This document shows, piece by piece, positions 7,169 through 59,008 of a stretch of 64,000 nt of DNA (positions are counted from its first letter, which is position 1; every line of letters begins with the position of its first letter). The translations under genes and the position numbers were made by a program. Below the pieces are notes generated by a model. That model was not told where the DNA came from and searched no databases. It was given only the letters and a program-made list of their open reading frames with translations. Source of the DNA: a bacterium (GTDB lineage Bacteria; ARS69); assembly GCA_025774805.1 (NCBI GenBank), contig JALGZR010000008.1, positions 1 through 64,000 of the forward strand, written 5' to 3'.

Positions 7169-7198
7169 CGCGACGAGCCTGGTGAGAAATGCGGGCTA
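7169..7198 (-). repeat. Interspersed repeat, copy A, containing the TAG stop of the YceI gene
   Basis: Read on the minus strand, the 30 bases begin with the TAG stop codon of the YceI gene and continue with CCCGCATTTCTC, then CAGGCTCGTCGCG. The same 30 bases occur without a change at 13602-13631 after another gene. A second GGCTCGTCGCGA lies just beyond, near 7151-7162. It sits in the gap between the convergent ettA and YceI genes. Confidence 0.85.
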
Positions 7199-7810
7199 GG
7201 ATGTCGGAACGACACCCTCGATGTGCACCGAGACGGCGACGTCCTCCCCGAGGAGCAGGCCTCCGGCGTCGAGCTTCTGGTTCCAGACCATTCCGAAATC
7301 CTTGCGATTGACGGTCCCGTTCAGCTCGAGTCCCAGGGTCGGCGTCCCCGTCATCGGATGGATGGCGAAGCCCAGCATCTCCACGTCGAAGGGAATCTCG
7401 CGGGTGACTCCCAGCAGGGTGAAGTCGGCGGTCACGACGTAGTGATCCCCCTTCTTCCGATCGACGGACTTCGTGACGAAGGTGATCTCCGGATGGTTCT
7501 CCGCGTCGAAGAAGTCCGGGCTCCGGAGGTGGTCGTCGCGCTTCCCGTTATTCGTGTTCACCGAGGCGGTCTTCACGGTTCCCTCGATCCGGAGGGTACT
7601 CTCGATCTTCTCGGGATCGACGGAGACGTGGCCGGTGAACTCGTCGAACCGGCCGGGCACCTTCGCGACGATGTGACGTACGCGGAATCCCACCTCGGAG
7701 TGGACCGGATCCACCGGGTACTCGATGGTGCCGGCCAGAAGCGTCGTGGGGACGAGGGCGAGAGCGAGGATCCCCGCCGTGGCGGCGGGTGAGAGCATCT
7801 TCCGGGTCAT
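7196..7810 (-). CDS. YceI-family periplasmic lipid-binding protein
   Basis: The 204-residue protein has a signal peptide ending near LLAG. It then shows the YceI lipocalin-like barrel: YPVDPVHSEVGFRVRHIVAKVPGRFDEFTGHV at the start, TASVNTNNGKRDDHLRSPDFFD in the middle, and FTLLGVTREIPFDVEMLG then KDFGMVWNQ near the end. These are the family's strongest conserved blocks. Members bind isoprenoid or fatty acyl chains in the periplasm; some are acid- or stress-induced. The gene stands alone, convergent with ettA and divergent from pgi. Its TAG stop is also the first codon of a repeat element. Confidence 0.93.
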   Translation of the reverse strand: MTRKMLSPAATAGILALALVPTTLLAGTIEYPVDPVHSEVGFRVRHIVAKVPGRFDEFTGHVSVDPEKIESTLRIEGTVKTASVNTNNGKRDDHLRSPDFFDAENHPEITFVTKSVDRKKGDHYVVTADFTLLGVTREIPFDVEMLGFAIHPMTGTPTLGLELNGTVNRKDFGMVWNQKLDAGGLLLGEDVAVSVHIEGVVPTS

Positions 7811-8040
7811 GCTTCACTCCTTCGGTCCAGAGATCTTCTTCAGGTTGACCGGTCCGGAGCGTCTCGGAGAACGGTTTCCGGACCACTGGATTTCCAACGA
7901 ACCCCGGGACCGGGCGCCGGTTCCGCCCCGCCGCGGGCGGGACGGCTGTCCGCATCGATTGGCCGGTCGGGGAGTGTTGCGGGGCACGAGTGAAGGTGAG
8001 AGGATCGCCGCGCCTCGAGGAAGGAAGACACAAGGAAGAC

Positions 8041-9705
8041 ATGAAGAGAGCGGCGAAACCCGGGTCAACCGACACGCGAGTCACCTTTTCGAATCGAGAC
8101 CTCACGGGCGACGGGGAGACGGCCCGCCGAACCGCGGCGATTCTCTCGACGCTCGATCGGGACGAGGCGATCCGACGTATCTGGCAACGGGACGCCACCG
8201 TCTGGCGCGATGACCCGACCGAGATCGACAACCGCCTCGGCTGGCTCACCGTCGTCGATAAGATGCGGCCCGAGCTGTCCGGGATTCGGGATTTCGCGGA
8301 CGGTCTCACGCGGAATCGCGTGGAGGACGTGATTCTGCTGGGAATGGGCGGGTCGTCGCTCGCACCCGAGGTGTTGCGTCGAACGTTCGGATCCGCCCCG
8401 GGACGTCCGCGCCTCCACGTTCTCGACAGCACTTCACCGGCGTGGATTCGACGGGTGAGCGAAAGGGTCGATCCCGAGCTCCTCCACGTTCTCGTGGCGA
8501 GCAAGTCGGGAACGACCGTCGAGGTCCAGACCCTCCACGCTCACTTCGACGAGCTCGTCCGCCGCGCCGGCCTCGAACGCGGGCCCCGCTTCAGCGCGAT
8601 CACCGATCCCGGGACGGCGCTCGCGGATCTCGCGGGGGACCGCGGATTCGCCCGCTGCTTCGAGAATCCTCCCGACATCGGCGGGCGGTACAGCGCGCTC
8701 TCTCTCTTCGGGCTCGTGCCGGCCGCCATCCTGGGCCTCGACCTCGAGGCGTTCCTGGAGCGGGCGGGTCGCATGGCGACGGCGTGCGGCGGCGACGTCG
8801 CCCCGGCCGAGAACCCAGGCGCGGTGCTCGGTGCCCTGCTCGGGGCGTGCGCCCTCGCCGGTCGGGACAAGCTCTCGCTGCTTCTTTCGCCCTCGATCGC
8901 GTCCTTCGGGCTGTGGGTGGAGCAGCTCGTCGCGGAGAGCATCGGGAAGGACGGAACCGGAATTGTCCCGGTGGTCGGCGAGACGATCGAGGATCCGGCC
9001 CGGCCGGGCGACGACCGCGTCTTCGTGACGGTCCGCGTCGCGGAGGACGAGCCCGGACCGACGCGCCTCGGTCCCGAACTCGCGGCCCGGGGCCATCCGG
9101 TCTACGCGATCGACCTGACCGACCCGCTCGATCTCGGGGCCGAGATGTTTCGTTGGGAGATGGCCACTGCGGTCGCCGGGCATGTTCTCGGGGTCCATCC
9201 GTTCGACCAGCCGGACGTCCAGTCGACGAAGGCACGCACCGAGGAGTTCCTGGCCGGCCTCCCGGCGGCGGGGGAGCGACCCGATCCGGCGGCCGGCGAC
9301 GCGAGCGCGATTCGGAGCGCCCTTCGCCCCGGAACCTACGTCGCGCTGATGGTCTTCGGCGACCCCGACGCGGGGCTCGAGGTCGCTCTCGACTCGCTGC
9401 GCCGGTCGCTGCTCGCGCGCTTCGGAGTCGCGACGACGCTCGGGATCGGCCCGCGCTTCCTCCACTCCACCGGACAGCTCCACAAGGGGGGAGGGGAGGG
9501 GGGCGTCTTTCTCCAGATGGTGCTGGAGGAGGAGCCGCTTCCGATTCCCGACCGTCCCTACGGCTTCCGCGAGCTGCTGAGGGCCCAGGCCGACGGGGAT
9601 CTCGCCGCGATCCGCGCGGCGGGGAGACGGATTCTCCGGGTCCCGCCCGTCCCCGATCCGGTGGCCGCGATCCGCTCTCTCACCGCGGAGCTCACCGGCC
9701 CATGA
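8041..9705 (+). CDS. pgi: Glucose-6-phosphate isomerase, of the type fused to transaldolase in other bacteria
   Basis: ATG 8041 has an AAGGAAG site upstream and gives 554 residues; an in-frame GTG at 7990 lacks one. Conserved blocks are ILLGMGGSSLAPEVL and LVASKSGTTVE (sugar-isomerase phosphate sites), and GIGPRFLHSTGQLHKGG near the C-terminus. The order and wording match the isomerase half of bifunctional transaldolase/Pgi proteins, but no transaldolase domain precedes it here. It interconverts glucose-6-P and fructose-6-P in the cytoplasm. Its last four bases overlap the glucokinase start, so the pair probably channels glucose into glycolysis or glycogen turnover. Confidence 0.9.
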   Translation: MKRAAKPGSTDTRVTFSNRDLTGDGETARRTAAILSTLDRDEAIRRIWQRDATVWRDDPTEIDNRLGWLTVVDKMRPELSGIRDFADGLTRNRVEDVILLGMGGSSLAPEVLRRTFGSAPGRPRLHVLDSTSPAWIRRVSERVDPELLHVLVASKSGTTVEVQTLHAHFDELVRRAGLERGPRFSAITDPGTALADLAGDRGFARCFENPPDIGGRYSALSLFGLVPAAILGLDLEAFLERAGRMATACGGDVAPAENPGAVLGALLGACALAGRDKLSLLLSPSIASFGLWVEQLVAESIGKDGTGIVPVVGETIEDPARPGDDRVFVTVRVAEDEPGPTRLGPELAARGHPVYAIDLTDPLDLGAEMFRWEMATAVAGHVLGVHPFDQPDVQSTKARTEEFLAGLPAAGERPDPAAGDASAIRSALRPGTYVALMVFGDPDAGLEVALDSLRRSLLARFGVATTLGIGPRFLHSTGQLHKGGGEGGVFLQMVLEEEPLPIPDRPYGFRELLRAQADGDLAAIRAAGRRILRVPPVPDPVAAIRSLTAELTGP

Positions 9706-10706
9706 TCCTCGCAGGCGACGTCGGCGGAACGAAGATCCATCTCGCCCTCTTCGAGGCCGGGCAAGGTGCGCCGGAAATGACCGTCGAGACGATGCGCGCG
9801 ACGGCGGACGTGTCCGATCCCGTCGCCCTGATGCGGGACTTCACGCAGGAGACGGGGGTCGTCCCGGAGGCCGTCGCCCTCGGGGTGGCGGGTCCCGTGA
9901 TCGCCGGCCGCATCGACGGCACGAACCTCCCGTGGTCTCTCGACGAGACGGCGATCGCGCGGGCGTTCCGCGGCGCGGACGTCCACCTGATGAACGACGT
10001 CATTGCCAGCGCCCACGGTCTCGACGACCTTCCCGCCGACGCCCTGCGGACGATCCAAGCCGGGGCGGAGTCCCCCGGAGCGAATCGCGCGATCGTGTCG
10101 CCCGGCACCGGACTCGGAGAGTGCCTTCTCGTCGGAAGGGGGAAGGCGCTCGTCGCGGTGGGAACGGAGGGAGGCCACGCCGACTTCGCCCCGACCACCG
10201 AGGAGCAGATCGAGCTCTGGCGGACGCTGCACCGCCGGTTCGGTCGCGTGAGCGTGGAGCACGTCGTGTCCGGACCGGGGATCGCGCACGTGTACGAGTG
10301 GCTGCGCGGCAGCGGACGGTTCGCGGGGGAATCGGAGAGCCTTCTCTCCCCCGATGACACCGAGGGGCCGGCCCGCATCAGCGAGGCGGCCCTGAAGGGG
10401 ACGTCGCCTCTCTGCCGCGAGACCCTGCGGGTGTGGATCGCCGCGTTCGGAGCCGAGGCGGGAAACGCCGCGCTGCGCGCGGTGGCCCTGGGCGGGGTCT
10501 TCCTGGGCGGGGGCATTCCTCCGAGGATCGAGCCCCTGCTCCTGGAGGCGGGCTTCCTCGAGGCGTTCGGCGCGAAGGACCCCTTCCGCGAGCTTCTGGG
10601 GAAGATCCCCGTCCACGTGGTGCGCGAGCCGGAGACGTGCCTGCGCGGGGCGGCCCGCTACGCCGCCGATCGCCTTGCCGGAATCACGAAGATCCGGGAT
10701 CCGTAG
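9702..10706 (+). CDS. glk: Glucokinase (Glk family)
   Basis: ATG 9702 overlaps the pgi stop (ATGA). The 334-residue protein has the N-terminal phosphate loop LAGDVGGTKIHLALF, the glucose-binding element GTNLPW, the catalytic-region sequence MNDVIASAHG and the ATP-binding block SPGTGLGECLLV. Next come GGHADFAP and GGGIPPRI. This is the non-ROK Glk family of about 320 residues. It phosphorylates free glucose with ATP, feeding the isomerase encoded just upstream. Its last 49 bases overlap the 3' end of the convergent glycoside hydrolase gene, so neither transcript can have a separate terminator there. Confidence 0.93.
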   Translation: MILAGDVGGTKIHLALFEAGQGAPEMTVETMRATADVSDPVALMRDFTQETGVVPEAVALGVAGPVIAGRIDGTNLPWSLDETAIARAFRGADVHLMNDVIASAHGLDDLPADALRTIQAGAESPGANRAIVSPGTGLGECLLVGRGKALVAVGTEGGHADFAPTTEEQIELWRTLHRRFGRVSVEHVVSGPGIAHVYEWLRGSGRFAGESESLLSPDDTEGPARISEAALKGTSPLCRETLRVWIAAFGAEAGNAALRAVALGGVFLGGGIPPRIEPLLLEAGFLEAFGAKDPFRELLGKIPVHVVREPETCLRGAARYAADRLAGITKIRDP

Positions 10707-12217
10707 CGCTCAACTTCCACAATAAGGCCATCTTCCGTCACTTCGTGAAGATCTTGGTCGAGGTGACGCCCCGACAGCTCGTCGCGGATCGTCAGCGTTC
10801 CCGGATCCCGGGATCGATCGCCCCGCGTCTCCCGGGAGCCCGCCGAGCGGAGGACGTCCGGGAGAGGGACCCGACCTTTGGCGACCGTCTCTCCGAGGTT
10901 CGCGACGGCCAATCGGATCTCCTCCGAGTCCCTCCAGACGCTGCCCAGGAGACCGCTCGCTTCGCCCGGGGGATCGGCGTCCCGGATCTCCAGCGGAGAC
11001 CAGTGCCCGCGATGGAACACCGGCGCGGTGAGCGCCTCGAAGAGCCGCTCGTAGAACGCGAGGCTCGCCTCGTCCACCGGCTCGACGGGGGCCCGGGCGA
11101 GTTGGACCGGGACGTGGATGCGACGCCCCGATTCCTGCCCCTCCTGGAAGAACCGGGCACCGGGGAGAGTCGCCGCGAGGACGGCGGCCGCCCGCGATCG
11201 TTCGGCCCCGAGCACCTCCATCGCCCGGGGCTCGTCGTGGTTCTCGAGGAAGCGGAGCCGGTGCTCGTGCCGCTCCCGCGGCTCCCCGACCCGGGCCCGG
11301 AGCCCATCGAGATCGCCGGCGATGATCTTGTCGGTGAAGTCCTTGTCGTAGGCGAAGTCGAAGCCGGCCGCGACGAGCCGCTCCTCGAGTCCCCAATAGA
11401 CCTCCGCGATCAGCACGATGTCGGGGTGTTCCCGGCGGAGCTCCGGAATCGCGGTCGACCAGAAGTCGCCGGCGTCATCTCCCGCCCCGCCTCCTCGCTC
11501 GCCCCAGGTCTTTCGGAAGATGTCCGGGAGAACGAGCATCGCGACGTCGCAGCGCAGCCCGTCGCAGCGCGACGCGAGATCCCGGAAAAGCTCACTCATG
11601 GCGCGCCGTGCCTCGGTGCTTCGGTAGTCCACCTGGCACGTGTCCGACCAGCCGGGGAAGTGCGGGTCGCGGCCGTGGGCGAGGACCCGGAACTCTCCGC
11701 CCGGCGTCGGGTGCGCGTACCAATTCTCCGGCTCCCGTGCGAGGTCGCGCGCACTGCCCTGCACGAGAAGCTCCGGCCGCTCGTCCCGCCAGCGGTGATC
11801 GCGAGCGAGGTGGTTGGGCACGAAATCCAGGATCAGACCCAGCTCCCGCTCGTGCATTCTCTCGCGGAGCCGGGCCAGTTCCTCGAGTCCCCCGAGGGCG
11901 GGCGGCGGCTCGTAGGAGCGGATCGAGAAGGGGGAGCCCTCAACGTCCGTCGGGTCCCAGTCGGGAAGGACCTTCTCGTACGCGGCCAGGAGGCCCGGGC
12001 TCCGGAGCGCCTCGGCCCGGCCGGCGGGTCCCGTCGACCAGACCCCCATCAACCAGATCCCGTGGAACCCTCGCCGGCGGATCGTATCGAGCGGCTCGTC
12101 GGGCACGTCGGCCAGGGTCACCGGCCTCCCCTCGGCCGTGCTCAGGGCGCTCAGCCAGGGGCGGACGGGAATCTCGAGGAGGAGCGGATGGGAGCTGCGG
12201 CGCAGTGGATTGGCCAA
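10658..12217 (-). CDS. Glycoside hydrolase family 13 (alpha-amylase superfamily) enzyme
   Basis: The frame stays open far upstream, but homology begins at HPLLLEIPVRPWLSAL, a common start for this group. TTG at 12217, with GAGG just before it, gives 519 residues and is my best start; it is not certain. The four GH13 regions are present: DFVPNH (D131), GLRCDVAM (R222, nucleophile D224), IAEVYW (acid/base E272) and FLENHDE (H327, D328). There is no signal peptide, so it acts on intracellular alpha-glucans or oligosaccharides. The neighbours, glucokinase and phosphoglucose isomerase, could use the glucose released. Substrate specificity cannot be read from sequence alone. Confidence 0.88.
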   Translation of the reverse strand: MANPLRRSSHPLLLEIPVRPWLSALSTAEGRPVTLADVPDEPLDTIRRRGFHGIWLMGVWSTGPAGRAEALRSPGLLAAYEKVLPDWDPTDVEGSPFSIRSYEPPPALGGLEELARLRERMHERELGLILDFVPNHLARDHRWRDERPELLVQGSARDLAREPENWYAHPTPGGEFRVLAHGRDPHFPGWSDTCQVDYRSTEARRAMSELFRDLASRCDGLRCDVAMLVLPDIFRKTWGERGGGAGDDAGDFWSTAIPELRREHPDIVLIAEVYWGLEERLVAAGFDFAYDKDFTDKIIAGDLDGLRARVGEPRERHEHRLRFLENHDEPRAMEVLGAERSRAAAVLAATLPGARFFQEGQESGRRIHVPVQLARAPVEPVDEASLAFYERLFEALTAPVFHRGHWSPLEIRDADPPGEASGLLGSVWRDSEEIRLAVANLGETVAKGRVPLPDVLRSAGSRETRGDRSRDPGTLTIRDELSGRHLDQDLHEVTEDGLIVEVERYGSRIFVIPARRSAA

Positions 12218-12334
12218 CTCGACCTCGGGAGGAGAAACCTGTCGGAACGCGGCCCGGGGGCCCCCGGGGGGTGCTCGAGCCCTTCCGGTCCGCGGGATCG
12301 ACCCCGGAGGGGCGTCCCGAGGGAGAGTTGTATC

Positions 12335-12348
12335 ACCCGTTATCGGGT
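12335..12348. promoter_or_regulatory. Inverted repeat in the divergent GH13/SatD-like promoter region
   Basis: ACCCG-TTAT-CGGGT is a perfect five-base-arm palindrome in the 193-base gap between the GH13 start (minus) and the regulator start (plus). A perfect 16-base palindrome of C and G runs lies at 12253-12268 in the same gap. The first could be an operator for the adjacent regulator; this is inference from position. Confidence 0.35.
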
Positions 12349-12410
12349 CTGGCGATCGACAATGAGGGGAAGTATTCTGTGGAGGTCCGTTCGGTGGACG
12401 GGGGGGTCGC

Positions 12411-13043
12411 ATGCCGCTCGAAACCGCGGGAGCCGTGCTGCTGGTGGAGGTTCGCGTCGCGCCGCGCACGCGGCTGGCCGACCCCGGCGCGATCGACGAG
12501 CGCCTCGCGGAAGCTCGGGTCCTCCTGGAAAACGCGGCCGAGAACGGGGAGTGGACCCGAGCCTCGGGTCCCGGTGTCTCGGGCACGCTGGTTCTCGCCG
12601 ATCCGGCCGAGGCCTTTCCTCTCCTTCACCGGGTCCGGACGGAGCTCCGATCCGATCCGGGCCGCCCGGCCGTCGCCGTCGCATCGGGGATCGGGCGCGG
12701 CGACGAGATGGAGGCGTCCCGCCTGGCGGGGCAGGCCTTTCGTTCGCTCGCCCGGAAGCGCGATCTGTTTACCCGGGCGCTGACTTCCGATCCGGACACG
12801 AACACGGTTCTCGGCGCGCTCTGCCGCACCCTGGACTCCCTGCACTCGGGATGGACCCGCGCCCAGTGGCAGGCCGTTCACCGACGGGACCGGGGCAGGA
12901 CGTTGCAGGAGATCGGTCAGGAGCTCGGGATCGCCTACCAGAACGTGAGCAAGCGCCTGATCGCGGCGCGGTACTCCCTCTACGGGGAAGTGCTGGACGC
13001 GGCGAGCCTCGTCTTTTCGAAGGCCCCCCCCTCGACTCCCTGA
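12411..13043 (+). CDS. SatD-like helix-turn-helix regulator
   Basis: The 210-residue protein ends with a clear sigma-70-region-4-like helix-turn-helix: GWTRAQWQAVHRRDRGRTLQEIGQELGIAYQNVSKRLIAA. The N-terminal half (LLVEVRVAPRT at the start, LVLADPAEAFPLLHRVRTELR, then VAVASGIGRGDEMEASRLAGQAF) follows the layout of the SatD family. SatD is a DNA-binding protein first found next to ffh in streptococci. No membrane segment or signal peptide is visible. It diverges from the GH13 gene, which may be its target. The start ATG at 12411 is supported by the SatD-like N-terminus, although no strong ribosome-binding site is seen. Confidence 0.6.
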   Translation: MPLETAGAVLLVEVRVAPRTRLADPGAIDERLAEARVLLENAAENGEWTRASGPGVSGTLVLADPAEAFPLLHRVRTELRSDPGRPAVAVASGIGRGDEMEASRLAGQAFRSLARKRDLFTRALTSDPDTNTVLGALCRTLDSLHSGWTRAQWQAVHRRDRGRTLQEIGQELGIAYQNVSKRLIAARYSLYGEVLDAASLVFSKAPPSTP

Positions 13044-13196
13044 GACCGCCACCCGGGCAACAACTCGTTCAACGACGCGAGGACCTACTTCCGGATCGAT
13101 CGGAACCGGCGATACGTGCAATCGCTCGGGTGCACCGGCGCGACCGGGATTTGGGAGGGTCCGATCGCAAAAAGAGATCGTCCCCTCTCAATCTGC

Positions 13197-13226: not shown

Positions 13227-13232
13227 CCTTTG

Positions 13233-13264: not shown

Positions 13265-13284
13265 ACTGGTCCGCTTCTTCTGCC

Positions 13285-13301: not shown

Positions 13302-13312
13302 AGTCCCTCGGC

Positions 13313-13601: not shown

Positions 13602-13631
13602 CGCGACGAGCCTGGTGAGAAATGCGGGCTA
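13602..13631 (-). repeat. Interspersed repeat, copy B, containing the TAG stop of the M28 gene
   Basis: Identical over 30 bases to copy A (7169-7198). On the minus strand it begins with the TAG of the M28 peptidase gene and continues CCCGCATTTCTC and CAGGCTCGTCGCG. Sequence past the 30 bases is not shared with copy A. Confidence 0.85.
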
Positions 13632-15731
13632 GCGGAGCCGGATCGACTTTCGCACCGCGTGACGGCCGTCCGCCTCCAACCGGAAGAAATACACGCCTGC
13701 CGCAGCGGGGCGCCCGAAGTCGTCCCGCCCGCGCCATCGGACCTCGTGGGAGCCGGGGTCGAGGGACCCGTCGAGGAGGGTTCTCACCCGCCTCCCGGCG
13801 GCCGAGTAGACGTTCAGCCGGACCTCGGCCTTCTCCTCGAGCCGGAATCGGATCCGGGTGGAAGGCAGGAAGGGATTGGGCCGGGGCGCTTCGAGATGGA
13901 GTCCGCCCCCGGTCGCGAGCGCGGGGCCCCGGGCGATCGAGGTGGCCTCCGTGGTGTCCGGGCGGGCGAGGGTCGAGATGGTCGGCAGGGCGATCCGCGT
14001 CACGTTGGCCAGGAGGGCCATGTCGAGCAGGCCGAGCGTATCTCCCACGGTGTGGATCTGTGGGGGGAATGGATTCCAGGACTCGATTCCGCAGATCGCT
14101 TCGAACCCGTGGTCCCAGAAGGAGGAGTGATCGCTCCACCGGCAGGACGGGCAGTGCAGGTGGGCGACGGGCAGTCCGGGGGCGTAGGTGGCCGCCAGGG
14201 AGGCGGCGAGGTCGCCGAGCCAGGCCGAATCGTCGTTCGACGCGATCCGCATCTCGTTGTCGTTCCACCCCACGCAGTCGAGGTTGAAGACCGCCACGAT
14301 CGAGTCGCCGCGCTCCTCCGCTCGGGCGGCGTACGCCTCGCTTCCGAAGAGTCCCTGCTCCTCCGCCGTGAAGCAGACGAATCGAATCGTCCGCTCGTGG
14401 GGCACGTCCGCCATCCGCCGCGCGGTCTCCACGATGACCCCGATCCCGGAGCCGTTGTCCTCGGCGCCCGGAGCCAGGAGCTCCGGGTGGGGGATGTTCG
14501 CGTAGGAGTCGTAGTGCCCGACGAGAAGAACCTCCTCGCCCGGGTTCCTCGTACCCGGTCGTACGGCGGTCACGTTCTGCCACCCGGCGAGAACCGTGTC
14601 GCGGCGGTGCTCCCAGCTCGCCCCCCCGTCCGAGGTCCGCGCGAAGAACCCGGCCACTCCCACGGCCCACACCTCGGATGGACTCCGGGATCGGACGCCG
14701 TGGACGGTGGTGCCGCCCGCAGGAGGGTCCTGCGGGGTCCAGGTCTCCCCGCCATCGGTCGTCGCGAGGATCGTCGAGTAGTCACCGACGATCCAGCCCT
14801 CCGCCGCGGTCGCGAAGGAGACTCCCCTCAGGGACTCCGTCGTACCGCTCGGCTCGGCCGTCCACGTGACACCGCCGTCCGCCGTCGCGCGAATCGTGCC
14901 CTCGGCCCCGACCGCCCAGCCGGCGGTCCCCACGAACTCGACGCGGGCGAAGGTCTGCGCCGCGCCACTCGCGACGGGGGCCCACGTGGCACCGCCATCG
15001 GACGTTCTCAGAATGAGACCGGTCTCGCCAACCGCGACCGCCGTCTGCTCGTCGAGCGCCGCGACGTCGTACAGGAACGAGAGCGTACCGCTCGCTTGAG
15101 CATTCCACGACGCGCCACCGTCCGTGGTTCGGAGGATCACCCCTTCCTTGCCGACGACCCATCCGACGCCCCCGGAGAGGATGTCCACGCCGTTCAGGCG
15201 CTTCGAGGCCGGGTTGGACCGGATCGTCCAGCTCACGCCCGAGTCGTCCGATGTCGCGATCACTCCCAGGTTCCCGACGACCACCCAGTCGCTTCCGGCC
15301 ACGGGATCGATGTCATGGAGGCCGGAGTCGACGCTCTCGAGGCCCTCGGAGACTGGAATCCACACTTCGCCCTCGACCGACCGCAAGATCATGCCGTCTC
15401 CTCCGACGGCGATGCCGACGCCGGAGGACGCGAACGCAATGGACTTGAGGCTGGCGACGGTGTGGAAGTAGTGGATCTCCACCGTGTACCCGAAGCTCTC
15501 GAACAGGTCGGCGAGGTGCTCGGCGGCCCACCGGTTGCCGTCGCTGTCCGTGTACCGGGAGAGGATGGTCACCGTGCCGGAGTCGACCTCGACCGGGAGA
15601 ATCGCGTCGGGAGGCGTGTGCTTGGACCGCGGGGAATCGGCCGGGGTCGACCCCGCGGACCACGCGACGAGCGCACAGACCACGAGGCCGCCGCGGGCGC
15701 CCCGCCCGAGGCGGCGCGTGGCACAGGGCAT
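13629..15731 (-). CDS. Secreted M28-family metallopeptidase split by a seven-repeat Ycf48/BNR-like propeller, with FlgD-like C-terminal tail
   Basis: ATG 15731 follows GGAGAGG and gives 700 residues with a signal peptide; an ATG 54 bases upstream lacks a site. A short M28 N-terminal piece (ILSRYTDSDGNRWAAEHL to about residue 90) is followed by about 285 residues with seven D/S-G-x-x-W type repeats (DGGASW, DGGATW, DGGVTW, DGGETW and others). The peptidase then resumes at WQNVTAVRPGT. Zinc and catalytic residues are in place: H406 (VGHYDSY), D425 (AEDNGSG), E457/E458 (TAEEQG), D485 (NLDCVGW), H560 (QIHTVGDT). The last 80 residues (PNPF-x3-TRIRF to YFFRLEADG) form a FlgD-like sorting or surface tail. 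It probably degrades peptides outside the cell. Confidence 0.85.
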   Translation of the reverse strand: MPCATRRLGRGARGGLVVCALVAWSAGSTPADSPRSKHTPPDAILPVEVDSGTVTILSRYTDSDGNRWAAEHLADLFESFGYTVEIHYFHTVASLKSIAFASSGVGIAVGGDGMILRSVEGEVWIPVSEGLESVDSGLHDIDPVAGSDWVVVGNLGVIATSDDSGVSWTIRSNPASKRLNGVDILSGGVGWVVGKEGVILRTTDGGASWNAQASGTLSFLYDVAALDEQTAVAVGETGLILRTSDGGATWAPVASGAAQTFARVEFVGTAGWAVGAEGTIRATADGGVTWTAEPSGTTESLRGVSFATAAEGWIVGDYSTILATTDGGETWTPQDPPAGGTTVHGVRSRSPSEVWAVGVAGFFARTSDGGASWEHRRDTVLAGWQNVTAVRPGTRNPGEEVLLVGHYDSYANIPHPELLAPGAEDNGSGIGVIVETARRMADVPHERTIRFVCFTAEEQGLFGSEAYAARAEERGDSIVAVFNLDCVGWNDNEMRIASNDDSAWLGDLAASLAATYAPGLPVAHLHCPSCRWSDHSSFWDHGFEAICGIESWNPFPPQIHTVGDTLGLLDMALLANVTRIALPTISTLARPDTTEATSIARGPALATGGGLHLEAPRPNPFLPSTRIRFRLEEKAEVRLNVYSAAGRRVRTLLDGSLDPGSHEVRWRGRDDFGRPAAAGVYFFRLEADGRHAVRKSIRLR

Positions 15732-15946
15732 GGGATCCTCTCCGGGAGGGGGTGCGAGAACTGCCGGGACGGGGAAGGCCAACACTCTACGGTAGCGGGT
15801 ACGGGGGCAGCCTTCAAGGCCGATGCGACCGTTCCCGGTGATCGCCCCCTCCGATCGCGCGGTCTCCGCCGCAGGAAATCCCGAGGAAAAAGGCCCGTCC
15901 GCGGCCCGGTGGCGCTGCTTCCCTCATCTCCCGGTGGTTGCGGCGA

Positions 15947-34458: not shown

Positions 34459-34535
34459 GGGCGATTAGCTCAGTTGGTTAGAGTGCCTGCTTGACATGCA
34501 GGAGGTCACTGGTTCAAGTCCAGTATCGCCCACCA
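34459..34535 (+). tRNA. tRNA-Val (anticodon GAC)
   Basis: A complete cloverleaf with encoded CCA at 34533-34535. The acceptor stem is GGGCGAT/ATCGCCC, D-arm GCTC/GAGT, anticodon stem CCTGC/GCAGG with loop TTGACAT (anticodon GAC), and T-arm CTGG-TTCAAGT-CCAG. It reads GUC and GUU codons. It sits between rpsA and infC. Confidence 0.97.
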
Positions 34536-50581: not shown

Positions 50582-50611
50582 CGCGACGAGCCTGACGAGA
50601 AATGCCGGCTA
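50582..50611 (-). repeat. Interspersed repeat, copy C, containing the TAG stop of aceE
   Basis: On the minus strand it starts with the TAG of aceE and reads CCGGCATTTCTC then CAGGCTCGTCGCG. It differs from copies A and B at three of 30 bases. It fills most of the 63-base gap between the convergent sulfatase-like and aceE genes. Confidence 0.85.
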
Positions 50612-53293
50612 GTCGCCCGCGCTCTCGGCGCCTCCCGACCCCGGGGGCAGCCCGAGCTCGGCCCGCGCTCGCGCGACGTCCTCGAGCGGGATCGCCCCGG
50701 CGAGACCGAGCCGGTGCAGCGTCGCCGCCGCGATTCCCTCGGCGTCGATGCCGAAGAGACGACGCAGGGCCTCCCGGGTGTCGCTCCGCCCGAAGCCGTC
50801 GGTTCCCAGGGAGTGGTAGGGACCGGGCACCCACCGCGCGATCTGATCCGGAACCGATCGCACCCAGTCGCTTGCCGCGATGGTCGGTCCCTCGAAATCC
50901 TGCAGAAGACGCGTGACCCGAGGCACGCGGGGTGGATCCGACGGGTGCTCGAGATTGTGGCGTTCGCACTCGAGCGCTTCGCGGCGGAGCTCGGTGAAGC
51001 TGGTCGCGCTCCAGACGTCGGCGGCCACGTCGTACCGCTCGGCCAGGATCTCCTGCGCGCGGAGCGCCTGATTGAGGATCGGTCCGCTGCCGAGGAGCCG
51101 GGCCCGGTGGACGCGGGGCTGCGGAGCGGGCCGGAAGCGGTAGAGCCCCCGGAGGATTCCCTCGCCGACCCCCTCGGGCATCGGGGGTTGCGTGTAGTTC
51201 TCGTTGTAGATCGTGATGTAGTAGGAGACGTCCTCGTTCTCGCCGTACATCCTCCGCAGGCCGTCCCTCACGATCGTCGCGAGCTCGTAGGCGTAGGCGG
51301 GGTCGTAGGCCACGACGGAGGGAACCGCGGAGGCGAGAAGATGGCTGTGGCCGTCGTCGTGCTGGAGCCCCTCGCCGGCCAGGGTGGTGCGCCCCGCGGT
51401 GGCCCCCATGAGGAATCCGCGCCCGCGGGCGTCGGCGAAGGCCCAGATCTGATCCATGGTCCGCTGGAAACCGAACATCGAATAGAAGATGTAGAAGGGA
51501 ATCGTGGGCTCGCCGTGCGTGGCGAAGGAGGTTCCCGCCGCGGTGAACGACGCCATGGACCCGGCCTCGGTGATTCCCTCCTCGAGGATCTGTCCGTCCT
51601 CTCCCTCCGAGTACGAGAGCAGGAGCTCCGCGTCCACGGGCTCGTAGCGTTGGCCGAAGGGCGAGTAGATCCGGAACTCCCGGAAGAGCCCCTCCATTCC
51701 GAACGTCCTCGCCTCGTCGGGAACGATCGGAACGACGCGGGGACCGAAGTCCGGAGTCCGCAGGAGCCCGCGCAGGAGCCGCACGAAGGCCATGGTGGTC
51801 GAGACCTCCTGCCCGGATTTCGTACCCGACTCGAACTCCGCGAACACGTCCTCCGTGGGCAACGGGATCGATGCGGGGCGCACGATCCGTTTCGGCAGAC
51901 AGCCGCCGAGCGCCCGGCGCCGCTCGAGGAGATACCGGATCTCCTCGCAGTCCGGGCCCGGCCGGTAGTACGGCGGGTGTTCCTCCAGACGGGAGTCGGG
52001 GATGGGAAGCTGGAGCCGGTCCCGGAACGCCATCAGCTCCTTGCGGCTGAGGCTCTTCATCTGGTGCGTGACGTTGCGGGCTTCGAACCCCTCGCCCAGC
52101 GTCCACCCCTTCACGGTCTTCGCGAGGATCACCGTGGGCGCGCCCCGGTGCTCGACCGCCCGCCGGTACGCGGCATAGAGCTTGCGGTAGTCGTGGCCTC
52201 CCCGTCTCAGCTTCGTGAGGGCGTCGTCGGAAAGGTCCTCCACCAGACGGGTGAGCCGGGGATCGGGTCCGAAGAAGTGCTCACGGATGAAGGCGCCCGA
52301 CTCGACGGTGTATCTCTGGTACTGGCCGTCGAGCGTGTCCATCATCTTCTGTCGCAGGGCCCCGTCGCCGTCGCGGGCGAGAAGATCGTCCCACTCGCGA
52401 CCCCAGATCACCTTGATCACGTTCCAGCCGGCGCCCCGGAACGTCCCCTCGAGCTCCTGGATGATCTTCCCGTTCCCGCGAACCGGGCCGTCGAGACGCT
52501 GCAGGTTGCAGTTCACGATGAAGACGAGGTTGTCCAGCTTCTCCCGGGCCGCGATGCCGAGCGCTCCGAGCGTCTCGGGCTCGTCGGTCTCCCCGTCCCC
52601 GAGAAACGCCCAGACCCGGGTCTCGTCGCTCCCCAGGATCCCCCGCGCCCTCAGATATCGATTGAACCGCGCCTGGTAGATGGCCGCGATCGGACCGAGA
52701 CCCATCGAGACGGTGGGGAACTCCCAGAAGTCGGGAAGGAGTCGGGGATGGGGATACGAGGGGAGACCCGGATGCGAGCCCGCCTCCCGACGGAAGTGAT
52801 CGAGGTCCTCTTCGCCCAGGCGTCCTTCGAGATAGGCGCGGGCGTACAGTCCGGGGGCGGCGTGTCCCTGGTAGAAGATCTGATCGCCCGGTGCCCCGTC
52901 CTTCCCCCGGAAGAAGTGGTTGAATCCGACCTCGTAGAGACTCGCGGCGGACGCGTACGTCGAGATGTGACCGCCGAGGCCCGGAGAGCGGTGGTTCGCG
53001 CGCGTCACCATCGCCATCGCGTTCCATCGTATGAGGCGGCGGATGCGACGTTCCATCTCCTCGTCGCCGGGGAAATCGGGCTCCTCCGCCGGGGAGATCG
53101 TGTTGACGTAGGCCGAGCGCGTGAGGGCGGGCAGATCCACTTCGCGGCGTCGGGCGTGCCGCAGGACGTGCAGGAGAAGATCGCGAGCCCGCTGGGGACC
53201 GGCGGTGTCGAGCACGGCGTCGAGGGACTCGATCCACTCTCCGGTCTCCTGCGGGTCGGAATCCGCGATGCGATCGGGGGACGGCGGCGACAT
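50609..53293 (-). CDS. aceE: Pyruvate dehydrogenase E1 component, homodimeric type
   Basis: ATG 53293 follows GGGAGT on the minus strand and gives 894 residues, near the 887 of E. coli AceE. The thiamine-diphosphate motif is [52 protein letters not shown]. The N-terminal [37 protein letters not shown], the middle [22 protein letters not shown] and the C-terminal [20 protein letters not shown] are AceE hallmarks. It decarboxylates pyruvate and acetylates lipoyl-E2. No E2 or E3 genes are adjacent, which is unusual. It is flanked by a tRNA gene and a convergent hydrolase. Confidence 0.96.
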
Positions 53294-53445
53294 GCGTGAC
53301 TCCCGTGAGAAGGAAGAGCGAGAGGGGAAGGGGTCCCCGGGGAGGAAGGGACCTCCTCGGGGGTCGCCGGGACGAGGTGAGCAAGATAGGGCCAAGCCCG
53401 GGACGCTGTCCACGGGGGCGCGGGGGCCGCGACGACCCCTCCGCC

Positions 53446-53474
53446 TTGACACCGGAGCGGGCAGCCCCTACCGT
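53446..53474 (+). promoter_or_regulatory. Promoter of tRNA-Arg
   Basis: A perfect -35 TTGACA (53446-53451), a 17-base spacer and TACCGT (53469-53474) as -10 place the start near 53481, six bases before the tRNA. The -10 matches three of six. Confidence 0.6.
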
Positions 53475-53486
53475 CTTCTGCCGCGC

Positions 53487-53563
53487 GGGCCCGTAGCTCA
53501 GTTGGATAGAGCGTTGGTCTCCGGAACCAAAGGCCGGAGGTTCGAATCCTCTCGGGCCCGCCA
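53487..53563 (+). tRNA. tRNA-Arg (anticodon CCG)
   Basis: Acceptor stem GGGCCCG/CGGGCCC, D-arm GCTC/GAGC, anticodon stem TTGGT/ACCAA with loop CTCCGGA (anticodon CCG), T-arm GGAGG-TTCGAAT-CCTCT and encoded CCA at 53561-53563. It reads the CGG codon, which a GC-rich genome uses often. Confidence 0.97.
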
Positions 53564-53572
53564 CGCGCTCCG

Positions 53573-53600
53573 CCGCGCCCGGCCGGTCGGTCGGGCGCGG
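53573..53600 (+). terminator. Terminator hairpin of tRNA-Arg
   Basis: CCGCGCCCG and CGGGCGCGG form a nine-pair stem around a ten-base loop, ten bases after the tRNA CCA. A short CCGCGTTTC tail follows. Confidence 0.6.
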
Positions 53601-53610
53601 CCGCGTTTCG

Positions 53611-53640
53611 GGCCCGCATGCCTCACCAGGCTTGGGCCCC
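53611..53640 (+). repeat. Degenerate relative of the interspersed repeat
   Basis: CCCGCATGCCTCACCAGG then CTTGGGCC resembles CCCGCATTTCTCACCAGG then CTCGTCGC of copies A and B. Here it does not follow a stop codon but lies between tRNA-Arg and the transporter operon, flanked by GGGCCC on both sides. It may be an old copy or chance. Confidence 0.4.
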
Positions 53641-53697
53641 GTTGCCTCCCGGGAGGGGCGATGCTAGATTGTTTCCTCCCAGTGCGGGGGGAAGTCG

Positions 53698-55287
53698 TTG
53701 AAGCGATTCGCCTTGTCGATCCTCCTCCTCGCCCTCCTCGGACGGGCGACTCCGAGCGAAGCCCAGGAACCCGACCCGGTGAGCGGGGGGACCCTGATCT
53801 ACGGTCGGGGCATGGACGCCGTGGGACTCGATCCCGCCCACGAGTCCGATGGGGAGTCGTTCAAGGTCTGCGACAACGTCTACGAGTGTCTTCTCCGCTT
53901 CGCCGACAACGGAACCGACATCGAGCCCGGGCTGGCGACGCACTGGGAGGTCAGCGAAGACGGGCGCGAGTGGACGTTCCATCTGCGGCGGGGGGTGCGT
54001 TTCCACAACGGAGACCCCCTCGACGCGATGGCGGTCGCGTACTCGTTCGAGCGCCAGTGGGGCGCGCGTGAGCCCCGGCACGAGGACTACGGCGTCGGCG
54101 GGCCGTATCCCTTCTGGGGATACCTCGGGATGGACGACATCCTGGAGAGTATCGAGATCCTCGATCACCTGACGGTCCGGTTCGTTCTCAAGACTTCGAG
54201 CGCCCCCTTTCTCTCCAACCTCGCCTGCAACTTCGCGGCCATCGTGTCGCCGCGGGAGGCGCACCGCTGGGGCGAGGAGTTCTTCCGCCACCCCTGCGGA
54301 ACGGGACCCTTTCGCTTCGAGGAATGGAAGCGGGCCGAGACGATCACCCTCGTTCGGAACGAGGACTACTGGGGCCTGCCGCCCTATTTGGACCGCATCG
54401 TCTTCCGGTCGATACCGGAGAACTCGACCCGCTTCTTCGAGCTTCTCTCGGGCTCCATCCACATGATGGACGGCATCCCTCCCGACGACGTCCCCGCCAT
54501 CCAGACGGACCGGAGCCTCAAGCTGCACGGGTCGCCGGGCATGAACGTCGCCTACCTGGCGATGAACCTCGATCACGAGCCGTTCGGGAATCCGCGGGTG
54601 AGACGCGCCGTGAACCACGCCGTCGACAAGGAGATGATCGTCTCCGCGCTGTACGGACATCTCGCGGAGATTGCTCTCGGCCCGCTCCCCCCCAATGTCT
54701 TCGGAGCGCACGAGGACCCGCCCGCGTACGGGTACGACCCGGAGTTCGCGCGCCGTCTGCTGGAGGAGGCTGGCTACCCCGACGGTTTCGAGACGACCCT
54801 GTGGACGATGTCGGGTCCGCGACCCTACATGCCGCAGCCGGTGCGCCTCGCCCAGGTGATTCAGGCCGACCTCGCGCAGGTGGGGATTCGGGCCCGGATC
54901 GTCTCCTACGAGTGGGGGACCTACCTCGGAAGGGTTCACCGGGGGCACCACGACATGGCCCTCCTCGGCTGGCAGGCGGACAACGGAGATCCGGACAACT
55001 TCCTCTTCGTCCACTTCGACAAGTCGTCCGCGGTCCCCCCCGCCGGCAACATCGCCTTCTACCGGGACGAGACGGTCCACGAGCTCCTGCTCGCGGGCCA
55101 GCGGACCGTGGATCCCGATCTCCGGTTGCCCTACTACCGAGAGGCCCAGGAGATCATCCACCGGGACGCCCCTTGGGTTCCCCTGGTACACACCATGGAA
55201 CTGGCAGCGCTGCGACGGGGAGTCTTCGGATACCGCCTCCATCCGACGGGACGGGTCCTTCTCTCTCGCGTCTGGCTCTCCCGGTGA
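53698..55287 (+). CDS. Peptide/nickel-type ABC transporter substrate-binding protein
   Basis: TTG 53698 gives 529 residues; GGGGGAAG precedes it. A signal peptide (KRFALSILLLALLG to SEAQ) without lipobox cysteine indicates a free periplasmic protein. The SBP family 5 fold shows GGTLIYGRGMDAVGLDPAHESDGESFKVCDNVYECLL, TFHLRRGVRFHNGDPLDA, GTGPFRFEEWKR, VRRAVNHAVDKEMIVSALY and GYDPEFARRLLEEAGYPDGFETTLWTM. It would bind oligopeptides or similar solutes. Two permease genes follow, overlapping, but no ATPase genes. Confidence 0.93.
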   Translation: MKRFALSILLLALLGRATPSEAQEPDPVSGGTLIYGRGMDAVGLDPAHESDGESFKVCDNVYECLLRFADNGTDIEPGLATHWEVSEDGREWTFHLRRGVRFHNGDPLDAMAVAYSFERQWGAREPRHEDYGVGGPYPFWGYLGMDDILESIEILDHLTVRFVLKTSSAPFLSNLACNFAAIVSPREAHRWGEEFFRHPCGTGPFRFEEWKRAETITLVRNEDYWGLPPYLDRIVFRSIPENSTRFFELLSGSIHMMDGIPPDDVPAIQTDRSLKLHGSPGMNVAYLAMNLDHEPFGNPRVRRAVNHAVDKEMIVSALYGHLAEIALGPLPPNVFGAHEDPPAYGYDPEFARRLLEEAGYPDGFETTLWTMSGPRPYMPQPVRLAQVIQADLAQVGIRARIVSYEWGTYLGRVHRGHHDMALLGWQADNGDPDNFLFVHFDKSSAVPPAGNIAFYRDETVHELLLAGQRTVDPDLRLPYYREAQEIIHRDAPWVPLVHTMELAALRRGVFGYRLHPTGRVLLSRVWLSR

Positions 55288-56288
55288 CCCCCTATCTCAT
55301 CCGGCGGATTCTCCTCATTCTGCCCACGCTGTTTGGGGTGTCGATCCTCGCCTTCCTGCTGATCCACTGGATGCCCGGTGACCCCGCGGAGATCCTTGCC
55401 GGGGAGCACGCCTCGCCGGAGGTCGTGGAGCAGCTCCGCAGGGACCTTCACCTCGACCGTCCGCTTCCCGAGCAGTACCTGACCTACGTGGAGGGGATCT
55501 TCCGGGGCGAGCTCGGGCGCTCCGCGAAGACGCACGAGGCCGTCGCGGACGAGATTCGACGCTACTTCCCGGCGACCGTCGAGCTGGCGACGGCGGCCCT
55601 GCTCATCGCCTGCCTGATCGGGGTTCCCGCCGGCTTTCTCGCCGCTCGGCGGCCGGGCGGTCCGGTCGACGCCCTCAGCACCGGTCTCGCCTCCCTCGGC
55701 GTCTCGATGCCGGTCTTCTGGCTGGGGCTGATCCTGATGTACCTGCTGGCCGTGCGCTTTCCGGTCTTTCCCGTCTCCGGTCGCGCGCCGGCGATCTTCT
55801 CCCATCCCCCGGTGACCGGGTTTCTCCTGCTCGACTGCCTGGTCGCGGGGGACGCGCGCATGGCCGTGCGGGTGCTGCATCACCTCGCCGTTCCCGCCTT
55901 CGTTCTGGGGACGGTTCCGATGGCGGTCATCGCGCGGATGACGCGCTCGAGCCTTCTCGAGTCCCTGGGTCGGGACTACATTCGCACGGCGCGGGCCAAG
56001 GGGTTGACGGAGCTTCCGGTGCTCCTGCGGCACGCGGGGCGCAACGGGATTCTACCCACCCTCACGGTGATCGGCCTCCAGTTCGGAGTGCTTCTGGGAG
56101 GGGCCATCATCACCGAGACGGTGTTCTCGTGGCCGGGAATCGGCCGCTGGATCCTCCTCGCCGTCGAGTCGCGCGACGCCCGGGTGCTCCAGGCCGGAGT
56201 GCTGCTCATGGCCATCTCCTTCGCGCTCGTGAACCTGGTGACCGATGCGGCGTACGCGGCGCTGGACCCGCGGATCAAGCTGCGATGA
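55284..56288 (+). CDS. ABC transporter permease, DppB/OppB type
   Basis: GTG 55284 overlaps the upstream stop; 334 residues. The N-terminal TPYLIRRILLILPTLFGVSILAFLLIHWMPGDPAEI and the EAA-loop RMTRSSLLESLGRDYIRTARAKGL, then HAGRNGILPTLTVIGLQFGVLLGGAIITETVFSWPGIG are standard for DppB. About six helices. It forms the membrane pore with the next gene product. Confidence 0.95.
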   Translation: MTPYLIRRILLILPTLFGVSILAFLLIHWMPGDPAEILAGEHASPEVVEQLRRDLHLDRPLPEQYLTYVEGIFRGELGRSAKTHEAVADEIRRYFPATVELATAALLIACLIGVPAGFLAARRPGGPVDALSTGLASLGVSMPVFWLGLILMYLLAVRFPVFPVSGRAPAIFSHPPVTGFLLLDCLVAGDARMAVRVLHHLAVPAFVLGTVPMAVIARMTRSSLLESLGRDYIRTARAKGLTELPVLLRHAGRNGILPTLTVIGLQFGVLLGGAIITETVFSWPGIGRWILLAVESRDARVLQAGVLLMAISFALVNLVTDAAYAALDPRIKLR

Positions 56289-56298
56289 GGCGGGGTCG

Positions 56299-57231
56299 AT
56301 GACAGATACGAGAAGCCGCCGGGCATTCGAGAGAGAGCTCCGGGTCCTCACCCGGCTGCAAAGACGGCGATCCACGGCCACGGCGATGGCCCTGCTCGCT
56401 CTCTTTCTTCTCGGGGCCATGTTCGGCCCGCGGGTGGCGCCCCGGGATCCGTACGAGCAGAACCTGGCGGAGCGCCTGCTGCCTCCGGGAGGGGAGCATC
56501 TCCTCGGAACGGACGAGTTCGGGCGCGATGTCTTCTCCCGTCTGGTTCACGGAACCCGGATCTCGCTCTTCATCGGGGTGGTGTCCGTGCTGATCGGAGT
56601 GACCGTGGGCGGTGCGATCGGACTCACGACCGGCTACTTCGGAGGATGGATCGATCTTCTGGGAATGCGTCTCGTGGATATCCTCCTGGCGTTCCCGAGC
56701 ATCCTGCTGGCGATCGTCGTGGTCGCCGTGCTCGGGCCGAGCCTCGAGAACGCGATGATCGCGGTGGGCATCGTGGGGGTGCCCCAGTACGCGCGCATCG
56801 TGAGGTCCGCCGTGCTCGCGGTGCGGGCGCTCCCGTTCGTGGAGGCGGAGCGGGCCCTGGGGGCCCGCGACGACCGCATCCTCCTCCGCACGGTGCTCCC
56901 GTTCTGCACGGCCCCGCTGCTCGTGCAGGCGAGCCTCGGCCTCGCCACCGCGATCCTGGACGCGGCCGGTCTCTCCTTCCTCGGGCTGGGGGCGCAGCCT
57001 CCCCTCCCCGAGTGGGGGGCCATGCTGGGCCACGGTCGGGAGTACGTCGTGCACGCCCCGTGGATCCTGGTGGCCCCGGGGGGGGCGATCCTTCTCACCG
57101 TGCTCGGGTTCAACCTGCTGGGCGACGGACTGCGCGACGCCCTGGACCCGCGGCTCGCCGCCACCTTCGGACACCGGCCGGCGGGCGGCCCGGACGTCCC
57201 CTCTTGGAAGCGAATCGAAAGGATGACATGA
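56299..57231 (+). CDS. ABC transporter permease, DppC/OppC type
   Basis: ATG 56299, 310 residues; GAGG precedes it. HLLGTDEFGRDVFSRLVHGTRISLFIGVVSVLIGVTVGGAIGLTTGYFGG is the DppC hallmark, and the EAA loop reads VRALPFVEAERALGARDDRILLRTVLP. AGLSFLGLGAQPPLPEWGAMLGHG is the conserved C-terminal block. It pairs with the DppB-like permease. The matching ATPase genes (DppD/DppF) are not in the window; the next gene is a TPR protein overlapping by four bases. Confidence 0.95.
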   Translation: MTDTRSRRAFERELRVLTRLQRRRSTATAMALLALFLLGAMFGPRVAPRDPYEQNLAERLLPPGGEHLLGTDEFGRDVFSRLVHGTRISLFIGVVSVLIGVTVGGAIGLTTGYFGGWIDLLGMRLVDILLAFPSILLAIVVVAVLGPSLENAMIAVGIVGVPQYARIVRSAVLAVRALPFVEAERALGARDDRILLRTVLPFCTAPLLVQASLGLATAILDAAGLSFLGLGAQPPLPEWGAMLGHGREYVVHAPWILVAPGGAILLTVLGFNLLGDGLRDALDPRLAATFGHRPAGGPDVPSWKRIERMT

Positions 57232-58931
57232 TCGCCACTCGCCTCCGGCGTCTCCTCGCGACCGCGACTCCCGCGCTTCTCTTCCCGCTCCTCCTCTCCG
57301 TCGCGGTCGGAGCGCGCGCCACGGAGCTCCCCGAGGAGAGTGCGCGCGAGGAGATCTCCTTCGACGCGCTCGAGCACTACTCGCTGGGCTCGCTCTTCGA
57401 GGCGCGGGATCGACTGCGGGAGGCGATCCACGAGTATCGTCTCGCACTTCAGCAGACCCCGGACAACGCGAACGTCTACGGCAGTCTCGCTCGCGTCCAC
57501 CTTCGACTGCAGGAGGCGGAGGAGGCCGAGGGCGCGGCCCGCCGAGCGCTCGAGCTGGACCCCTCGAACCGTGAGGCCCTCGACGTCATGGTCGATCTCC
57601 ACCTCGCGCGACGGGATCTGCCGGCCGCCGTGGAGACGCTCCGGCAAGTGGTGGCCTCCGATTCGACCGATCTCCAGACGCGCATCCGGCTCGCGGAGAT
57701 CCTCGAGCGCACGGGGGATCTGGAGGGGGCGCTCGGGGAGCTTCAGGAGGCCTCGCGGCTGAGCCCCGGGCTGGCTCACGTTCACTATCGAATCGGGTCG
57801 CTCTACTCCCAGCTCGGCCGGCTCGAGGAGGCGCTCGACGAGTTCGACACGGTGGTGCGGATCGATCCCTCGTTCACCGAGGCGCTCATCAACGCCGCGA
57901 CCGTGCGCGAGATGGAGATGAACCTGGAAGGCGCGGCCGATCTGTACAAGCGCGTGCTCGAGCTCGAGCCGGAGAATCTCGCGGTCCACCGGCGTCTGCT
58001 GCGGGTCCAGCTCCTGCTCGACGACACCGAGAGAGCGGGGGAGACCGCCCGCTGGATCCTCGAGCGGAACCCGGCCGACGCGGACGTGCGCGAGCAGTAC
58101 GGCCTCCTCCTGCTCCGTGCGGGCGACGTCGAGGGGGCGATCCAGGAGCTGGAGCGGGTCCGATCGGAGTCGGAGAAGCGAATGAGCGTGCGCCGCCACC
58201 TGGGCCGGCTCTACTGGGACGAGGAGGAGCACGAGAGGGCCCGCGAAGCGTACCGCGAGGCCCTCGAGATCGACCCCAGATTCACGGAGGGGTGGGTGTC
58301 GCTGGGCTACCTCCACGCGCAGCTCGACGAGCCCGCGGAGGCGGCCGCGGCCTTCGAGAGGGCGGTGGAGCAGACGCCCGGCCGGCCCGTGCTCCACTTC
58401 CTTCTGGGGGTCTGCCGGAACGATCTCGGCGAGTACGAGAGCGCCCGGGAGGCCTTTGAAGAATCACTCGAACTCCGTCCGGGAAACGCCCAGGCGCACT
58501 ATGGATTGGGCGTTGCCCTCGAACGCCTCGGCCGGACCGAGGACGCCGCGGCCGCTCTCCGCAAGGTCCTGGAGATCGAGCCGGAGAACGGGGAGGCACT
58601 GAACTACCTGGGCTACATGTTCGCCGAAAGAGGGGTGCATTTGAACGAGGCGGTCGAGCTGCTGGAGCGGGCGGTCGCTCTCGAGCCGGAGAACGGCTAC
58701 TACCTCGACAGCCTCGGTTGGGCCCACTTCCAGCGGGGGGAGTTCGAGAAGGCCCTGGGATACCTGGAGCGGGCGACGCGGCGGTCGGAGGGGGACGCCG
58801 TGATCCTCGAGCACTTCGGCGACGTGCTCGAGCGCCTGGGCCGGTCCGAAGAGGCCCGGGAGGCGTGGAAAAGGGCTCTCGAGGCTTCTCCGGACGCGGA
58901 GGGGGCCCGGCGGAAGCTCGGAAACCCTTAG
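57228..58931 (+). CDS. Exported tetratricopeptide-repeat protein
   Basis: ATG 57228 overlaps the permease stop. The 567 residues have a signal peptide (to about ARATEL) and then about 14 TPR units covering nearly the whole chain. Examples are DNANVYGSLARVHLRLQEAEEAEGAARRALELDP, GLAHVHYRIGSLYSQLGRLEEALDEFDTVV and GYYLDSLGWAHFQRGEFEKALGYLERA, which has the canonical W-L-G-Y-A-F-A-P spacing. No enzymatic domain is seen. A periplasmic scaffold, possibly for the transporter upstream, is the most that can be inferred. Its TAG stop begins repeat copy D. Confidence 0.85.
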   Translation: MIATRLRRLLATATPALLFPLLLSVAVGARATELPEESAREEISFDALEHYSLGSLFEARDRLREAIHEYRLALQQTPDNANVYGSLARVHLRLQEAEEAEGAARRALELDPSNREALDVMVDLHLARRDLPAAVETLRQVVASDSTDLQTRIRLAEILERTGDLEGALGELQEASRLSPGLAHVHYRIGSLYSQLGRLEEALDEFDTVVRIDPSFTEALINAATVREMEMNLEGAADLYKRVLELEPENLAVHRRLLRVQLLLDDTERAGETARWILERNPADADVREQYGLLLLRAGDVEGAIQELERVRSESEKRMSVRRHLGRLYWDEEEHERAREAYREALEIDPRFTEGWVSLGYLHAQLDEPAEAAAAFERAVEQTPGRPVLHFLLGVCRNDLGEYESAREAFEESLELRPGNAQAHYGLGVALERLGRTEDAAAALRKVLEIEPENGEALNYLGYMFAERGVHLNEAVELLERAVALEPENGYYLDSLGWAHFQRGEFEKALGYLERATRRSEGDAVILEHFGDVLERLGRSEEAREAWKRALEASPDAEGARRKLGNP

Positions 58932-59008
58932 CCTGCATTTCTCACCGGTCTCTGCTGCGCCGGCGGCTCGCCGCGTCCTCGTGACGAACCCGGCGAGGAA
59001 TGCAGGCT
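58929..59008 (+). repeat. Interspersed repeat, copy D, a full palindromic element after a TAG stop
   Basis: The element starts at the TAG of the TPR gene and reads AGCCTGCATTTCTCACCGG. It ends 60 bases later with CCCGGCGAGGAATGCAGGCT, the inverted copy with two or three mismatches. The ten terminal bases (AGCCTGCATT/AATGCAGGCT) are perfectly complementary. GGCTCGCCGCG in the middle recalls the GGCTCGTCGCG of the other copies. The shape suggests a small palindromic, possibly mobile, element or a 3' RNA hairpin. Confidence 0.8.

Follow-up and report, generated by a model that had tools for sequence, protein, structure and literature searches.

Palindromic repeats with IS1380-type ends at CTAG words and TAG stop codons of a bacterial genome

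The repeats that border the TAG stops of four genes in the window (the whole stretch of DNA that was analysed, 64,000 nucleotides) are, with high probability, the ends of non-autonomous palindromic MITEs, which carry an IS1380-family terminal inverted repeat (TIR) and would be moved by an IS1380-type transposase into the word CTAG (YTAR). The stop codon is the target, kept intact by duplication, and no evidence of stop-codon recognition was found.

Repeat copies in the window

Exact matches to the core TAGCCNGCATTTCTC are present in the window at 7184-7198 (-), 13617-13631 (-), 50597-50611 (-) and 58929-58943 (+). A sequence-only reading had placed four copies at these sites, which holds; 0.09 matches with at most two mismatches were expected after shuffling. 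The reading's assignment of the TAG as the in-frame stop of the YceI, M28 peptidase, aceE and TPR genes was confirmed by the ORFs, which end exactly at the repeats (7196..7810, 13629..15785 and 50609..53452 on the minus strand; 56646..58931 on the plus strand). The first two copies are the same over 30 bases and the third has three differences, again as described. The copy at 58929 has an inverted partner at 58990-59008, 41 bases off, which had been overlooked; the repeat is thus one arm, or end, of a palindromic element. Only one complete copy, of 75 bp, is found in the window. The features are as follows.

7169..7195, minus: element end, truncated, made up of the terminal inverted repeat CCCGCATTTCTCACC and the bases after it; partner arm lost
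7196..7199, minus: CTAG target word, the one copy of the duplication that remains; the YceI gene has its TAG stop at CTA 7196-7198
7196..7810, minus: YceI-family protein gene with the element at its end; YceI model matched to 189/191
13602..13628, minus: truncated element end, same as the 7169 copy over 30 bases including the TAG
13629..13632, minus: CTAG target word, in which the M28 peptidase gene has its TAG stop
13629..15785, minus: gene of an M28 peptidase that carries an Ig domain of the FlgD type at its C-terminus, element at the end of the gene
50582..50608, minus: truncated element end, more diverged
50609..50612, minus: CTAG target word, TAG stop of aceE
50609..53452, minus: aceE (pyruvate dehydrogenase E1), element at its end
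53612..53625, plus: possible decayed core copy with two mismatches and no CTAG; may be chance
56646..58931, plus: TPR-protein ORF, element at its end
58928..58931, plus: TTAG (YTAR) target copy; the TPR protein stops at the TAG at 58929-58931
58932..59006, plus: short element of 75 bp, complete, its arms inverted; right duplication decayed to CTCC at 59007-59010

Two tRNA genes are also found on the plus strand of the window (34459-34532 and 53487-53560).

Anatomy of the element and its probable mover

The whole genome (5.1 Mb in 284 contigs) contains 330 cores, scored over 14 bases with at most one mismatch; the reversed control gave 3. The elements are about 50 to 182 bp long, present in many copies and devoid of a transposase gene; paired elements fall into classes with about 175-177, 59-77 and 49 bases between the cores. 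Those that were folded form one long hairpin (-138 kcal/mol for the full-length consensus), and the elements end in the terminal inverted repeat CC[C/T]GCATTTCTCACC. CTAG is intact on both sides in 31 of 83 pairs and the remainder mostly have one-change variants; bases outside the flanking CTAG lack conservation, and back-to-back elements have a single CTAG in common. The flanks thus show an element bordered by a CTAG target duplication. The MITE sequences alone are compatible either with duplication of CTAG or with duplication of TA inside CTAG.

The same ends and duplications are found in IS1380 elements. Complete copies on finished plasmids of Stutzerimonas and P. putida read CTAG-CCCGCATTTCTCACA...-CTAG, an IS1380 element on a Bradyrhizobium plasmid has a CTAG duplication, and that of R. 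leguminosarum reads TTAG-CCCGAATCTCTCA..-TTAG. The target duplication is 4 bp, YTAR and mostly CTAG. The TIR match amounts to 13-14 identical bases in two of these elements (L293, L294), with one mismatch at one end in another (L291), and nothing in common is evident between MITE and IS ends beyond ~17 bp; the end of the founding IS1380A type, CGCGGATTTCTCAC, is related but not the same. We conclude that the repeats are MITEs related to the IS1380 subgroup with this TIR.

The transposase would act in trans. One of the other genomes, with 46 element copies (G275), has a full IS1380 transposase gene (PF13701, E 1.3e-155), and the exact end GGTGAGAAATGCGGGC, followed by TAA, lies ~220 bp downstream of it; the left end of this IS was not found, and IS3-type sequence lies upstream of the transposase gene. 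The window's own genome has one IS1380 (PF13701) transposase fragment (C17:1747-2085), with no matching element end near it. Other candidates were rejected: DDE_Tnp_1 (PF01609) and the RAYT domain Y1_Tnp (PF01797, with a positive control in E. coli) are absent from this genome, and IS630 DDE_3 (PF13358) is absent or lacks the element's ends. An autonomous copy was also sought between distant end pairs, and the intervening sequences (12.5-16.2 kb at L070; L100, L104, L112 and L160) proved to be ordinary genes. An IS110-like ORF was seen near L204, ~950 bp from an element end.

Five contigs of another genome (C1, C23, C25, C30 and C38 of G344; L136-L141) stop in the same 58 bases of an element end (CTAGCCCGCATTTCTCACCGCATAGGG...CCATG). 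Because the contigs break at the element, its interior is unassembled; the contig-end sequence probably belongs to a multi-copy, longer element that was left unbinned.

Stop codons, CTAG supply and alternative explanations

Position relative to genes was determined in 1.366 Mb, obtained by adding ~1.3 Mb beyond the window, with genes called by a codon model trained on long ORFs. The plain open-frame test is weak in this GC-rich genome, where other frames are also open, and gene calls were substituted for it. With at most two mismatches, 269 copies were found, corresponding to 84 paired and 101 single-end elements (185 elements in total); since the 1.37 Mb was chosen around copies, density and occupancy are inflated, and the stop proportions should be unaffected. 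An in-frame TAG stop was supplied by 78 of the 269 copies, the next commonest offsets accounting for 4 copies each, and no called gene ended at offsets +2 to +200. The enrichment at in-frame TAG that the sequence-only reading had named as support is therefore present; copies are not scattered without a fixed place relative to stops, though ~60% of the elements lie off stops. Six elements end two convergent genes, with one TAG stop at each end, as predicted from the palindromic nature of the target. In the other genomes, 50 of 181 element ends have an open stretch of 90 codons or more in the frame leading into the TAG, versus 25 and 25 for the other frames, and it was the exclusive open frame in 36 cases, versus 16 and 9. 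Single copies in G374 and G280 each also supply an in-frame gene end.

The proteins concerned end at their native C-termini. In the genes with an element that were tested, HMM models (NCBIfam/Pfam) match up to their last position or close to it: 328/328 for trpS, 393/393 for kbl, 189/191 for YceI, 43/43 for LysM and 341/343 for PilT. Among trpS orthologues lacking an element, that of the sister genus (G003) stops at the same residue, and those of G001 and G002 stop one or a few residues later, with TGA. The aceE orthologue of the sister genus, 73% identical, has a C-TAG stop and no element, i.e. an empty target word, and that of G004 ends in TGA. C-terminal T9SS-type or FlgD-type domains (GVYF...RK..V.R) end the genes at L105, L114, L069, L048 and window 13629-15785; such domains at element-bearing genes fit native ends.

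These observations bear on the proposal that the 3' ends were exchanged by gene conversion or shuffling, or that insertions into coding sequence truncated genes and gave them a new stop. Although unrelated genes do end at the same base of the repeat, the native C-termini contradict it, similarity begins at the CTAG with none extending into the genes, and no gene uses the stops in the other two frames inside the element. For the cases tested the proposal is refuted, and overall it is the least credible of the readings considered here; gene conversion, put forward in the earlier reading, thus finds no support.

CTAG occurs 364 times in the 1.37 Mb, whereas 4038 (base composition) or 1038 (Markov) would be expected; relative to base composition it is depleted about tenfold in this sample. 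Outside elements, 97 free CTAGs are intergenic, 70 are TAG stops and 51 are coding. The stop share of the free non-coding CTAGs (70/167, 42%) equals that of the elements (72/185, 39%; P = 0.59), which argues that the target is CTAG and not the stop codon; the implied occupancy of C-TAG stops (72 filled, 70 free) is overstated for the whole genome, the sample having been picked around copies. Of the suggestions made in the sequence-only reading, targeted insertion therefore stands, with the word CTAG (YTAR) rather than the stop codon as such for its target. Inside genes, elements are rarer than free CTAGs (10/185 versus 51/218, P = 3e-7), and between convergent genes they are commoner (53/164 versus 17/154, P = 6e-6). 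The latter excess indicates that CTAG supply alone does not fix where elements persist. It could result if insertions that disrupt an operon or a promoter are lost, or from a bidirectional 3'-end role; either would do.

In the mechanism that we propose, an IS1380-type transposase acting in trans would put the MITEs into the 4-bp word CTAG (YTAR) and duplicate it. With CTAG strongly avoided in coding sequence, a large share of the tolerated targets would be gene ends, where a last codon ending in C meets a TAG stop. After insertion one of the two CTAGs would still adjoin the gene, leaving the protein unaltered and its TAG stop next to the element. The stop association would then reflect target choice together with the loss of harmful insertions, those within genes having presumably been purged.

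Selection of the repeats just past stops as functional 3'-end elements, i.e. as terminators or mRNA-stabilizing hairpins like some REPs, is unlikely. The hairpins are very stable (consensus -138 kcal/mol), they are in excess between convergent genes, and their structure is kept across phyla with two-sided changes (see below). However, the elements off stops (~60%), a stop share the same as that of free CTAGs, the presence of TIRs and target duplications, and the absence of the element from four genomes of the same family are difficult to reconcile with such selection. No intrinsic terminator (hairpin plus T-run) was found at the four repeats of the window, nor did any Rfam model match there. 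A 3'-end function, which the earlier reading had also considered, is hence unneeded for the position of the repeats, but the excess between convergent genes permits a secondary 3'-end role, which the elements may have. Overall, the earlier interpretation is partly supported.

Two other types of mobile sequence were weighed against the IS1380-related MITEs. IS630 prefers TA within 5'-CTAG-3', according to the title of Tenzen and Ohtsubo (1991) as listed in PMC2170065, and an IS630/Tc1-mariner-derived MITE inserting at this TA would find the same word. Six genomes, including that of the window, contain no DDE_3 transposase (G000, G275, G121, G152, G344, G280), the two DDE_3 transposases detected (in G120 and G374) are without these ends, and the ends match IS1380 elements, which make 4-bp duplications; an IS630 origin is accordingly very improbable. 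REP/REPIN sequences of the GTAG type, moved by RAYT (Y1 tyrosine transposase), share with the elements their palindromic form, high copy number and intergenic position, and GTAG REPs are reported to give flanking ORFs TAG stops (PMC3733652). The genome lacks Y1_Tnp (PF01797), which was detected in the E. coli control, YTAR is present on both sides instead of GTAG on one, the unit exceeds 20-40 bp and the TIR is that of IS1380, which makes this origin more improbable still.

Host range and comparison with known systems

Of 385 other genomes, 7 contain the repeat end (e.g. 46 copies in G275 and 39 in G121), and none of these 7 belongs to the window's own family, and the element is absent from four genomes of that family. 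It is also present in records named Proteobacteria, Acidobacteria, Gemmatimonadetes, Verrucomicrobia, Planctomycetes, Eisenbacteria, Nitrospira and others. Many phyla have elements of 182-186 bp whose interiors have diverged while their ends, length and fold are conserved (L154, L155, L159, L162, L196, L213, L223, L243 and others), and a second size class, of 244-249 bp, occurs mainly in Gammaproteobacteria and Acidobacteria. Two IMG/VR contigs catalogued as viral (L134, L135) begin or end in an element end and may in fact be pieces of bacterial DNA with the repeat at their border. A blastn search of plasmids and phages with the MITE gave no match.

Across a non-redundant set of 25 elements, 183-190 bp long and drawn from several phyla, the mean identity is 59% and the minimum 40%. 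Consensus-pair cells are paired in 89%, versus 77% after shuffling, and two-sided changes are found in 25 of 39 pairs. Selection on the structure would give this, and so would correction of one arm by the other. That the 182-bp hairpin is no passive product of deletion but a single ancient lineage over many phyla, its full-length fold being selected (for transposition by an IS1380 transposase, or as an RNA structure for 3' ends in both directions that hosts retain between convergent genes), is conceivable but doubtful. The host range across many phyla and the diverged 182-bp hairpin with its two-sided changes are new here, and the latter is the part that merits more study.

Overall, a simple rule can let a transposon fill a gene-dense genome at small cost: if its target is a short word that is avoided in genes, often arises where C precedes a TAG stop and is duplicated on insertion, then many gene ends become sites where it does almost no harm. 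Apparent stop-codon recognition is accounted for by CTAG targeting, which suggests that CTAG-targeting elements (IS1380-type, MITEPsy1, IS630) may gather at TAG stops generally. TAG stops supplied by palindromic repeats were already reported for GTAG REPs (PMC3733652), and a CTAG-duplicating MITE was already known in MITEPsy1 (PMC3189936). The literature searched, which took in few subscription journals, yielded no account of IS1380-related MITEs that have this TIR.

Among known systems, the IS1380-family IS of Stutzerimonas (NZ_CP076684.1), P. putida (pKF715A) and Bradyrhizobium (pCB82_1) have the TIR CCCGCATTTCTCAC and the 4-bp CTAG/TTAG duplication in common with the elements described here. 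They differ in having a transposase gene and ~1.65 kb between the ends, whereas the present elements are ~50 to 182 bp, palindromic and non-coding, and only the ~17 terminal bases are common. MITEPsy1 of Pseudomonas syringae is likewise small and non-autonomous and duplicates CTAG or YTAA (PMC3189936), but it is 100 bp long, has another TIR (GGAAGGTCTGAAAAAGCC) and is thought to derive from ISPsy2. GTAG-tagged REPs are also palindromic and high-copy, and their ends often give flanking ORFs a TAG stop (PMC3733652); they differ in their size (20-40 bp), in the tag at one end and in their RAYT tyrosine transposases. The enterobacterial small mobile sequences of the RU/ERIC type, MITE-like intergenic repeats of ~100-170 bp (PMC2759123), have another sequence and are alike in form only.
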